NCBI RefSeq assembly: GCF_003287355.1
Contig: NZ_QMIM01000031.1
Coordinates: forward strand, 1-55,765
DNA: 55,765 nucleotides
Reading direction: 5' to 3'
DNA from: Halorubrum sp. 48-1-W
Lineage (GTDB): Archaea > Halobacteriota > Halobacteria > Halobacteriales > Haloferacaceae
Translations under genes and position numbers: made by a program
Shown here: positions 1,697-55,765 of the stretch, one piece after another
How positions within the stretch are numbered: the stretch's first letter is position 1
How the letters are laid out: every line of letters begins with the position of its first letter
The notes under the pieces: generated by a model
Database searches by the model: none
Told to the model about the DNA's origin: nothing
What the model saw: the letters and a program-made list of their open reading frames with translations, nothing else

Positions 1697-2332
1697 CTAC
1701 CTATCCTGACGTTCTCTTTCTATTATCTGTTCCAACTCTTTCTGAGTCATGACTGCCGAGAACAGATCAGGGTTCAACCGTTCGCCAAGCTGTCGATATG
1801 CGCGTTCGGACAACCAATAATACTGTAAGGTGTCGTCAAAGCGTGCCGCAATCGCCTCACCTTCGCTATCTAAGAAGTATGCGTGTGTCAGACCAGGAAT
1901 ATACAACGACAGCACGGCTTCGACTACATCTGGGGTCGTAGCGCATCGCCCCTGAATCGTTCCATCATTGTACTCGCTCTCGACGTACGAGATTTCACTT
2001 TCTAGGAGCGTCTTGACGGCCTCTTCATTCCGATTCCGGAGAAATTCATCTATCCCGTGAACTCCGACTGTGGCTACTTTCCGAGGATTTACGTCCAGAA
2101 CTGCTTCCGTAATCGTTCGTGCGAATTCGTGGTATCGGTCCGACGGAAGTCCGTCTTTATCCAGGATGTATTTCGTTTCGTCGTCCGGTCCGTCAACGGA
2201 TTCGTGGAAACCGCTCGCCTTCTTGGTGGTCTCCATCCTGGCTTTGATAGCCTCCTCTAATTCGTCCATATCCACCTCTCCTAACATCTGAGCGAGTCGT
2301 TCACTTCCACTGGGCTTACTCCCGTTTGACAT
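1697..2332 (-). CDS. Hypothetical protein, IS-unit cargo
   Basis: This 211-aa soluble acidic protein has no signal peptide, membrane segment or motif that I can name. Its N-terminal third is helical and charged (GEVDMDELEEAIKARMETTKK). The middle (residues about 60-140) looks like a mixed alpha/beta domain, and the end is again helical. It ends 44 bp inside the left terminal repeat of the unit at 1637. Its start lies only a few bases from the right-end hairpin of the IS200/IS605 element, so that insertion has replaced whatever promoter it had. An immunity or partner role is possible, but nothing in the sequence shows it. Confidence 0.65.
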   Translation of the reverse strand: MSNGSKPSGSERLAQMLGEVDMDELEEAIKARMETTKKASGFHESVDGPDDETKYILDKDGLPSDRYHEFARTITEAVLDVNPRKVATVGVHGIDEFLRNRNEEAVKTLLESEISYVESEYNDGTIQGRCATTPDVVEAVLSLYIPGLTHAYFLDSEGEAIAARFDDTLQYYWLSERAYRQLGERLNPDLFSAVMTQKELEQIIERERQDR

Positions 2333-2340
2333 TAGTAAAC

Positions 2341-2440
2341 AGCCTCGGGCGCGGTGGCCCGAGGCTTTTTGTAATTCCCTCAGCCGTGCGCTAGCACTCC
2401 CTGCTCGGCAAGCGAGCGGGATGAGGGTGGGCGGCTTACG
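2341..2440 (-). ncRNA. Candidate omega (reRNA) scaffold at the tnpB 3' end
   Basis: TnpB guide RNAs of known IS605 elements come from the 3' end of tnpB through the right end. Here the minus strand carries a strong 8-bp stem hairpin at 2343-2366 (GCCTCGGG pairing with CCCGAGGC). GC-rich segments lie upstream, overlapping the tnpB stop. The guide would be the bases beyond about 2340, which fall on the start of the 211-aa gene. This is inferred from family knowledge, with no transcript evidence. Confidence 0.4.
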
Positions 2441-3684
2441 CGCCCCGACCCGGACAGACGCACCAACCGTACTTGCGGCTGGGTTTTGTGAGTCCGGTAA
2501 TTCGTTGTGTTCCCATCGAGTTTCGCCTTCTCACGCCACGCGATGTTCACTGATGCATTCCGGTCAGCGTGGTCTTGCACCACGTCACACTCCTCGTTCG
2601 GACAACGGAACCGCCGTCCCTGCCGATCTCCACGCTCACCACAGCACGAACACGTCTGCGAGTTATAGTACGCATCCACCGTATCCGTGGGAATCTCTCG
2701 CCATGTCGCCTTGTACGAGACAAACTTCTCGAACTTGTGGAACGGCAGTTTGTGCAATCGGCGGTTCATATACGCCCCGTACTTGATTTCGCCCCGGATG
2801 CCGCTCATGTCCTCGAACACGATAACCGGATTCGAGTACTGCTCTGCGAACTCCACAACAGCACGGGAAAGCCGATGCAACACCCACTCGGTGAACCGCT
2901 CCTCCTTGTCACCGAGTGTGTGGTAGATGCTCGTTTTGCCGTGTTCTTGACAGCGAGTGGTGATAGTGTGGTAGCGTTGGCGTTCCTGCTTGACTCGTCC
3001 GTAATCGAGGACGAGTGTACCTTTCGTCTGCATCGTCTCGCGGTCAAGCGCGGTGAGTGCGACGTTGCGCTCGTTGATGTCCACGCCAACCAGCGTTTCG
3101 GCGGTGTCGGGTTCGGGCACGTCGAACTCGCGTGTGACCGTGACGTGTAGGGAGTACACGCCATTGCGGTACAGGAGTTCGGCCTGCCCCACATCCACCT
3201 CATCCGACGTGAGGGCATCTCGAAGTTCGTCCATCGCGTCCGGCTCGCCGCGCAGATGACCCCTCACCTTCTTGTAGGGTTTTGGGCTGATGCGGAACTG
3301 GACGCGGTTCGTGTCGTTGTCCACGGTGAGGCGGTAGCCTTCCGTGTGCGCCATCACGAGTGGATACGCACCAGATTTGTCCGTACTCGGCGGCGTCGGC
3401 TTGCCGCCATCGGGGTCGTCTTGATTTTCCCACCACTCTTTGAGCGATTGGTAGGAGTCCCACGTTTGGAGTGCTTTGCCGACGACCGCGCACTTGTTGT
3501 TCCGCAAGAAGTCGTCGCGGTCAACCTCCTTCTGTATCCCGGTGCGATTGTACCCTTGCTGTTTGAGGCGGATGGTCTCGTTGAAGATTTCGCGTGAGGC
3601 GAGGTGAGCGTCGTGAAGCCACGACCGTTCACCAGACGCTATGTGAAGACGCGTCTGAATCGTCTTCGTAGCTTCCTCACCCAT
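2380..3684 (-). CDS. tnpB: RNA-guided endonuclease TnpB (IS200/IS605)
   Basis: The protein has 434 aa. RuvC-like catalytic residues are all present: D202 in GVDINERN, E291 in VFEDMSG and D374 in DHADRNA. A four-cysteine zinc finger (C345, C348, C361, C366) sits between the last two. The N-terminal region is a typical OFD/wedge-REC-like segment. TnpB nucleases use an RNA from the transposon end to cut the empty donor site next to the transposon-associated motif, which favours retention of the element. The C-terminal tail after residue 390 is Arg/Ser-rich and overlaps the presumed omega RNA. It is divergent from tnpA and probably shares the promoter region between them. Confidence 0.92.
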   Translation of the reverse strand: MGEEATKTIQTRLHIASGERSWLHDAHLASREIFNETIRLKQQGYNRTGIQKEVDRDDFLRNNKCAVVGKALQTWDSYQSLKEWWENQDDPDGGKPTPPSTDKSGAYPLVMAHTEGYRLTVDNDTNRVQFRISPKPYKKVRGHLRGEPDAMDELRDALTSDEVDVGQAELLYRNGVYSLHVTVTREFDVPEPDTAETLVGVDINERNVALTALDRETMQTKGTLVLDYGRVKQERQRYHTITTRCQEHGKTSIYHTLGDKEERFTEWVLHRLSRAVVEFAEQYSNPVIVFEDMSGIRGEIKYGAYMNRRLHKLPFHKFEKFVSYKATWREIPTDTVDAYYNSQTCSCCGERGDRQGRRFRCPNEECDVVQDHADRNASVNIAWREKAKLDGNTTNYRTHKTQPQVRLVRLSGSGRVSRPPSSRSLAEQGVLAHG

Positions 3685-3728
3685 GCTTTGACAATCATTT
3701 CAGACTATCATAAATTCAGGGGTTAGGG

Positions 3729-4136
3729 ATGGAAAAGTACCGTAGTCACGCACATTCGGTTAGTTCCTGTAAGTATCACTTCGTCTGGTGTCCGAAGTAT
3801 CGCCACCCTATTCTCGATGTAGTGGAGGACGATGTGCGAGAGTTGTTTGGTGAGACTGCCGACCACTTCGGTCACGAAATTCTGGCGTTGGAGATCGCGG
3901 ACGACCACGTACACTTGTTCGTGCAAACAGACCCGAATCACAGTCCGGCGGACATTGCTCGGCAATTCAAGTCGTACTCGGGTAAGCACTTGCTGGAGCG
4001 GTATCCCGAGATTCGGGAGGCGTATTTCTGGGGTGGTGGATTCTGGAAGGTCGGGTACTACGTGGGAACGACGGGAGCGGTGTCGGAAGAAGTGGTTGAA
4101 CGGTATATCGAAGAGACGGAACACGCGCCAGAGTGA
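3729..4136 (+). CDS. tnpA: IS200/IS605 transposase TnpA (HUH, Y1)
   Basis: This 135-aa protein has the normal length of the family. It carries the HUH motif (H60 and H62 in DDHVHLFV) that binds the metal ion and the single catalytic tyrosine (Y126 in VERYIEET). TnpA dimers cut and rejoin single-stranded DNA at subterminal hairpins on the lagging strand. The frame is complete and begins with an ATG soon after the tnpB start on the other strand. A hairpin of the expected type follows its stop. Confidence 0.93.
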   Translation: MEKYRSHAHSVSSCKYHFVWCPKYRHPILDVVEDDVRELFGETADHFGHEILALEIADDHVHLFVQTDPNHSPADIARQFKSYSGKHLLERYPEIREAYFWGGGFWKVGYYVGTTGAVSEEVVERYIEETEHAPE

Positions 4137-4501
4137 CGCGCTTCACCCCCGCCCACGGTGGGGCGGGGAACTCGCGCTGTTTTTCGTTTAGATGCCCGCG
4201 TTCTTCACAAATAAGACTACTGCCGCTTCAACGCTGAACCGCTAGAAACGACTGATAAACTGCCTGTAAGGTGAATCTAGCAGATCACAACTGAAGGCCC
4301 ACTACTACCTTTGATCGATAGCGGGTCATCGCTCAGTACGCAGTTCTCATCGACCAGCTGTTTCAGGCGGGAATATATCTGAAGAATAGGATTTCAACAG
4401 AGCCAGGAGTTCTTATTCCTTGAAGAGCACGTGCTACGTGACGCTGAACGCCAGTACCAGCCAGTATGTCGGGCGGCGGGGAAAGCGTACTGTTACTTCC
4501 T
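4137..4501. other. Non-coding: IS200/IS605 left-end hairpin and IS5-type right end
   Basis: This stretch holds the left-end hairpin of the IS200/IS605 element at 4147-4168 (CCCCGCCC pairing with GGGCGGGG around ACGGTG). It also holds the right end of the IS5-type unit at about 4326-4404 with its terminal repeat at 4388-4404. From 4405 to 4501 I see only the 3' flank of the next minus-strand gene. Confidence 0.65.
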
Positions 4502-19198: not shown

Positions 19199-19465
19199 GC
19201 GGTGGCGCGTGCCTCCGAGCGCCGCGGCCGCGGCGCTCGGAGAACCGCGCGAGGGAGATCGAGGTGACCCGCCGGCGGTTCCGGCGGGTTACCGAGACCG
19301 AGGCTGGGGAGGCGTGAGGTGCGGGGCTGTGCGGGGTGGGACTCAAAGGGGCAGTCGCGAGGAGGCCGTAGGCGACACAAGCACCGCAACGAGGGAGCGA
19401 TAGCGACCGAGTGAGGAGCGCAGCGAGCGTACGGCCTCCTCGCGGCTGGGGCTTTGGAGGTGTTT
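19199..19465 (+). ncRNA. Structured repeat, copy 1 (candidate RNA)
   Basis: This copy shares conserved blocks with the one at 55595: GCGGTGGCGCG at the 5' end, GAGGCTGGGGAGGCGTGAGG at 19300-19319, TCAAAGGGGCAG at 19343-19354 and AAGCACCGCA at 19379-19388. Pairing is extensive. GCGGT 19199-19203 pairs with ACCGC 19244-19248 around a 15-bp stem (19213-19227 with 19228-19242), and 19268-19275 pairs with 19281-19288. A third stem, 15 bp long, joins 19356-19370 to 19430-19444. The unpaired blocks are purine-rich on the plus strand, so I assign that strand. It ends near GGGGCTTTGGAGG. No transcript is known to me. Confidence 0.55.
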
Positions 19466-47093: not shown

Positions 47094-47281
47094 TCACTTA
47101 CGTGATTATCGAGCCGGTTCTAATGCTTTTCTATGCGCACGTTCGTGGGTATCACTGCGAGATTTCGCGGATGACTCCGCCAGAGCCCCCGTCGCGAGGA
47201 CTCGTGCGACTCGCCGTCCTCCGCGCCTCCGAAACCCGGCTGTACCGCCGCCGGCGGTTCTCCGTCGAGTTCCACCTGCCG

Positions 47282-55594: not shown

Positions 55595-55765
55595 GCGGTG
55601 GCGCGCCTGCGAGCGCCCGCAAGGGCGCGAGCAGACCGCGAGGGACGTGGTGAGCGCTCGAAGAGCGCGAACCACGAGGCTGGGGAGGCGTGAGGTGCGG
55701 TGCGGTTCGGGTGGGGTTCAAAGGGGCAGCCGCGAGGGCGACGCCCGGCGACGTAAGCACCGCAG
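55595..55765 (+). ncRNA. Structured repeat, copy 2 (candidate RNA, cut by window end)
   Basis: The copy has the same blocks as copy 1: GCGGTGGCGCG, GAGGCTGGGGAGGCGTGAGG at 55676-55695, TCAAAGGGGCAG at 55718-55729 and AAGCACCGCA at 55755-55764. Helices differ in sequence but keep pairing. In hairpin 1 the stem CTGC-GA-GCGCCC closes a GCAA tetraloop; in hairpin 2 GTGGT-GA-GCGCTC closes GAA. Both carry symmetric GA/GA internal loops. TGCGGTGC 55696-55703 can pair with GCACCGCA 55757-55764. About 80-90 bases at the 3' end are outside the window. Confidence 0.55.

Follow-up and report, generated by a model that had tools for sequence, protein, structure and literature searches.

A truncated copy of a dispersed structured repeat at the end of a Halorubrum contig, and its relatives across the haloarchaea

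Bacterial genomes harbour several families of structured dispersed repeats, such as BOX, ERIC/RU and bcr1, which are intergenic, modular and foldable, measure 100-300 nt and occur in tens of copies. Among haloarchaea, the PATEs and SMR-A of Haloquadratum walsbyi are repeats of which small ones insert into palindromes (PMC3119063), and a PATE carried by the virus HRTV-DL1 is transcribed (PMC10544981). Single-stranded DNA forms extraordinarily stable mini-hairpins when the loop is GNA or GNNA and the stem has two or more G-C pairs; d(GCGAAGC), with a sheared G.A pair in its GAA loop, melts at a Tm of about 78 C (PMC4686876). Here we describe a repeat from Halorubrum sp. 48-1-W that invites comparison with these systems. 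The window, the whole stretch of DNA analysed, is one complete contig of 55,765 bases from an assembly of 3.58 Mb in 69 contigs. The sequence at its end belongs to a class-wide family of structured repeats that is real and well supported, and that would represent a large RNA family so far unstudied or else a mobile element working through folded single-stranded DNA without the known transposase.

One truncated and one complete copy in the window

A sequence-only reading had proposed that the last 171 letters of the contig are a second copy of a structured repeat, with a GA/GA loop separating an outer from an inner stem in both arms. This proposal stands: copy 2 has matches at 41 places in the genome, and the plan of both arms is read directly from the sequence and reproduced by RNA and DNA folding alike (Table 1). 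The GCAA tetraloop that it assigned to one arm caps arm 1, while arm 2 closes with a GAA triloop. Copy 2 is without its 3' half because the contig terminates within the repeat, and the partner of its 5' strand of the 3' arm would fall past the contig end (in columns of alignment A1 the 3' arm pairs 51-53 with 177-179 and 59-67 with 162-171). Several contigs of the genome start or stop within the repeat, which is probably behind some of the assembly breaks. Copy 1 is complete, and its 3' arm and CTTTGGAGG-type ending recur in further complete copies elsewhere in the genome; its arm 1 has a GGCC loop and is devoid of GA/GA. Compared with dinucleotide shuffles, copy 2 folds with z-scores of -2.7 (RNA) and -2.2 (DNA), and copy 1 with -5.8 and -4.1 (0 of 200 shuffles). 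Homology is the stronger argument against chance: besides the 41 matches in the genome, the core 20-mer occurs twice in the contig against 0.04 expected. GG(C/T)TGGGGAGG of the core is present in all 40 sequences of A1.

Table 1. Features of the repeat and of neighbouring elements in the window
Feature	Position	Strand	Detail
Copy 1, full length	19199..19460	+	ends in CTTTGGAGG at 19452-19460
Copy 1, core and 3' arm	19302..19458	+	model R1, 152.2 bits, E 6e-28; copy 1 is among the sequences used to build R1
Copy 2	55595..55765	+	5' two thirds; model R1 positions 1-91 matched
Copy 2, hairpin 1	55607..55634	+	CTGC-GA-GCGCCC-GCAA-GGGCGC-GA-GCAG; sequence and RNA/DNA folding
Copy 2, hairpin 2	55646..55676	+	CGTGGT-GA-GCGCTC-GAA-GAGCGC-GA-ACCACG; sequence and RNA/DNA folding
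Copy 2, conserved G-rich core	55676..55695	+	GAGGCTGGGGAGGCGTGAGG
Core stretch usable as probe			GAGGCTGGGGAGGYGTGAGG
Copy 2, long 3' arm, 5' strand	55719..55737	+	CAAAGGGGCAGCCGCGAGG; homology to copy 1
Copy 2, conserved internal-loop motif of 3' arm	55747..55764	+	GGCGACGTAAGCACCGCA
Degenerate 3' arm remnant	about 47160-47222	-	GAGTCCTCGCGACGGGGGCTCTGGCGG
IS605-type element	2319-4136		
sot2652/omega RNA of this element	2319-2501	-	
TnpB-like ORF of this element	2380-3684	-	
Y1 transposase ORF of this element	3729-4136	+	

Copy number and spread

The full repeat spans roughly 230-270 letters, lies in intergenic DNA, and is present at 10 to about 125 copies per genome in all ten Halorubrum genomes counted. 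When up to two mismatches are allowed, a core pattern of 25 bases finds 50 copies in the source genome and 97, 72, 125, 10, 45 and 77 in six other Halorubrum; the reversed pattern used as control finds none. Without mismatches, the pattern still recovers 45, 45 and 55 copies from three single-contig Halorubrum genomes. In a sample of 39 genomes, all 22 of the same genus contain a match. R1, a covariance model that covers the core and the 3' arm and was built from the 40 sequences of A1, which come from several genera, matches at E<=1e-5 86 of 116 sampled haloarchaeal genomes and 36 of 46 genera. Across a phylum-wide sample it matches 18 of 148 genomes, all 18 of them haloarchaea, and finds no relatives in the other classes sampled. 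Other genera carry dozens of copies with cores such as GGCTGGGGAGG, GGGTGGGACTGAAAGGGGC, GACGYAAGCACCGCA, GGAGCGCAGCGAG and GGGGGCTTTC, some genomes have just 1-4, and several copies are reduced to the ~110-nt 3' arm. In one genus of another family (L266-L272) the 3' arms form head-to-head inverted pairs around the short palindrome GCCGGYTGRYCARCCGGC; one such pair lies upstream of hisG and is common to two species. The repeat has no match in Rfam, either at gathering thresholds or at E<=5, and blastn against haloviruses returned none, the only hits being weak ones to Klebsiella phages at E 4. The open-access papers searched contain no description of it; a listing in subscription papers or supplementary tables, which lay outside the search, is possible, for instance under the heterogeneous PATEs.

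A conserved fold on one strand

In the shared layout, two hairpins that vary between copies and contain GA/GA or GGA/GGA loops come first; a G-rich core follows, and then a long 3' arm (CAAAG...CTTTG) whose internal loops are conserved. RNAalifold predicts 32 pairs in A1, 21 of which have two-sided changes. In the 3' arm, which accounts for 29 pairs, 96.5% of cells are paired, compared with 81% when shuffled and 26-39% when partners are slid, and two-sided changes number 153 cells against 37.5 in shuffles; CAAAG/CTTTG in Halorubrum is replaced by GAAAG/CTTTC elsewhere, and columns 92/140 alternate between C-G and G-C. For every one of 89 copies, the plus strand gives a better fold than the complementary strand under RNA and DNA parameters alike. 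In a test that scores both kinds of wobble equally, G.T exceeds A.C by 23 to 4 in hairpins 1 and 2 (p=0.0003) and by 40 to 9 in the 3' arm (p=1e-5), p-values that are optimistic because related copies are not independent. The covarying fold, the advantage of the plus strand and the excess of G.T therefore identify the conserved entity as one specific strand in its single-stranded form, and not double-stranded DNA as such.

Covariation and one-strand wobbles of this kind fit a structured RNA, and single-stranded DNA would give the same signal. A multi-copy, SINE-like family of structured non-coding RNAs, mobile or not, in which every copy would yield a transcript that folds and is active, has a considerable chance of being correct, if one well short of even. 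It would account for unpaired motifs conserved over several families in A1, and for a TTTATAA-like box just upstream of 39 of 84 Halorubrum copies, compared with 7 of 1640 control stretches. However, this box sits 13-18 nt before the element, which at the usual archaeal spacing would place the start site inside the first stem, probably too close for the box to serve as an ordinary archaeal promoter that drives the full fold. Against such a family also count the lack of a consistent neighbour gene, the differences between species in which sites are occupied, and the loops, which do not follow GNRA. A K-turn was considered for the conserved loop of the 3' arm and, on visual inspection, rejected because the pattern of bulges is wrong for one.

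The loops lean instead towards DNA. Among 128 distinct hairpins, internal loops are GA/GA in 88 and GGA/GGA in 14, with no TC/TC, bearing out GA/GA as a feature of the family. Terminal loops include 90 triloops, 56 of them GNA (54 closed by C-G), and 31 tetraloops, 24 of them GNNA, against about 6% of G...A loops expected from composition. A conserved GNRA loop, as the sequence-only reading envisaged, is refuted, because loops vary freely between copies: five of the 128 are GNRA, whereas 19 are GNYA, with a pyrimidine in third place. Its further argument, that tandem G.A pairs and GNRA loops are specific to RNA and would be pointless in a DNA element, is mistaken, since DNA mini-hairpins with GNA or GNNA loops, the loops seen most often here, are published as extraordinarily stable (PMC4686876); finding GNA/GNNA loops and G.A pairs in a genome is on its own no proof of RNA. 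The loop statistics lean to DNA but, coming from related copies and from pairs that would also be open to an RNA, they are not proof, and the element may function as RNA.

Sites, candidate movers and known elements

When sites of the source genome were compared with four relatives at 87-89% identity, one (L007) was occupied in five species, with position and orientation unchanged but whole hairpins swapped, and another (L021) in four species and vacant in one. Four more (L020, L022, L026, L013) are vacant in at least one relative, L022 and L026 mainly on the strength of match coordinates, and elsewhere one site holds the element in opposite orientations in two species. Occupancy changes from species to species, some sites are old, and modules are exchanged. 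Among the 47 of 84 copies assigned a gene context by an acidity-based gene caller (which gave none for the other 37), gaps between convergent genes are enriched (18/47 against 42/222, p=0.006) and those between divergent genes depleted (6/47 against 60/222, p=0.04). Mobility is strongly suggested. The occupied and vacant sites, including the pair in opposite orientation, the high copy numbers against a control of zero and the bias in gene context all speak for the reading that we prefer.

Our preferred reading, held tentatively and with slightly less than even confidence, is that copy 2 is a truncated copy of a haloarchaea-wide, non-autonomous dispersed mobile repeat whose folded strand matters and which is moved in trans as DNA. 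The element would spread as DNA; some enzyme acting in trans would recognise the folded strand and move it; the hairpins would be selected as stable single-stranded DNA structures (C-G-closed GNA/GNNA loops and tandem G.A pairs); and copies landing between convergent genes would survive best. This reading is further favoured by the class-wide covarying fold and strand-specific wobbles, by the agreement of the loops with published mini-hairpins, by the replacement of entire hairpins at an orthologous site and by the inverted paired arms in another genus. Counted against it are the absence of any linked transposase or recombinase, the lack of strand clustering on three chromosomes, site comparisons that yielded no clean target duplication or exact insertion ends, the occupation of at least one site in five species, and the class-wide conserved unpaired bases, which would fit RNA too.

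The repeat is too short to encode a transposase, and Pfam and PADLOC searches of proteins beside single copies revealed no linked autonomous, gene-bearing version and no mobile-element Pfam; a 516-aa neighbour proved merely to be conserved, along with the site, in a sister species. The three single-contig genomes have no clusters of copies on one strand (z -0.4, 1.4 and 0.8), therefore showing no replication-strand preference such as lagging-strand transposition of IS200/IS605 would leave. An apparent strand bias along genome G019 was an artefact absent from complete listings of those three genomes, and the same lack of bias argues against a replication-polar signal of the Chi or KOPS type. 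REP/BIME elements with RAYT were rejected on length (230-270 nt instead of palindromes of 20-40 nt) and because PF01797 is missing from two high-copy genomes.

A cis-acting element with a fixed place at the ends of genes, for example an insulator or a terminator of transcription, would explain the excess between convergent genes and the convergent site filled in five species; it is nonetheless improbable, as copies also lie between divergent and codirectional genes and, as a pair, upstream of hisG in two species, occur in both orientations at one site, and are missing from 30 of 116 sampled haloarchaea. Least credible, and very unlikely, is that the repeat is a PATE, a deletion derivative of an IS605-type transposon that the Y1 transposase TnpA would move as single-stranded DNA. 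Haloarchaea commonly contain PATEs, which lack a transposase gene and receive small repeats in their palindromes (PMC3119063), much as the repeat here receives small double hairpins, but the repeat has no similarity to IS605 ends, six Y1-transposase loci gave a single R1 match (a separate full copy adjoining the element in L279), the HRTV-DL1 PATE does not match R1 (best 5.9 bits), and genomes G016 and G019, with 97 and 125 copies, have no Y1 transposase (PF01797). PATEs also have neither terminal inverted repeats nor target duplications; of the repeat, inverted paired arms are seen in one genus of another family. A link to the Y1 transposase was rejected on the loci and genomes named, though this enzyme may have mobilised copies in the past.

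Several other elements accompany the repeat. Tandem arrays of ~50-60-nt units (about 57 nt) ending in GGGGCTTTGG, often with TTTATAA in each, lie 3' of many Halorubrum copies, among them those in L011, L020, L104 and L129, and resemble core-deleted copies of the element's end. IS5-type MITE ends (GGCTCTGTTGAAATCCT...AGGATTTCAACAGAGCC) enclose several source-genome copies (L004, L008, L009, L015, L019), where CAGTACAG boxes upstream replace TTTATAA, and also occur at 71-88 and 4390-4404 of the contig; many copies have other flanks. A MITE of a known insertion sequence would have terminal inverted repeats in common with a transposon, and a target duplication. In another genus (L173, L186), AT-rich palindromic boxes of the CATATGTTCATATATG type stand upstream where Halorubrum has TTTATAA, and each lineage seems to have its own upstream box. 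Nested inserts of ~45-65 nt, consisting of two perfect hairpins with mostly three-base loops (for example GTGGCGC-TAC-GCGCCAC plus GCCGGCGC-GAA-GCGCCGGC), interrupt stems and loops of the repeat at L002, L003, L014, L016, L027, L029 and L030 in the source genome and at L266, L270 and L272 in another genus, and are similar to the SMR-A elements inserted in PATEs or to the double-hairpin elements of mitochondria.

It is possible, though less likely than not, that the family constitutes a new class of archaeal mobile element, conserved class-wide, each copy of which would be a folded single strand with DNA-favoured motifs (tandem sheared G.A, GGA/GGA, C-G-closed GNA/GNNA) recognised in that form by some recombinase without any Y1 transposase, or else a class-wide SINE-like structured RNA. 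In being intergenic, modular, foldable and dispersed, the repeat is like BOX, ERIC/RU and bcr1, a likeness that implies no relation in sequence; it differs in being archaeal, in its tandem G.A pairs and GNA/GNNA hairpins, and in its conserved 3' arm. The sot/omega RNAs of IS1341 TnpB elements (RF02657), one of which lies in the contig (Table 1), are similarly structured, haloarchaeal and linked to mobile DNA, whereas the repeat has neither an Rfam match nor an adjoining TnpB. The stable DNA mini-hairpins (PMC4686876) have the same loops on G-C stems that dominate the repeat's hairpins, there closed by C-G, but are known from isolated oligonucleotides and not as a family of genomic elements. 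With PATEs and SMR-A (PMC3119063) the repeat shares high copy number, freedom from a transposase, richness in palindromes, a haloarchaeal home and sites at which a second strain or species has the element turned round. The near-terminal palindromes of IS605 type that mark PATEs are lacking in the repeat, which possesses a class-wide internal fold and persists without a Y1 transposase.
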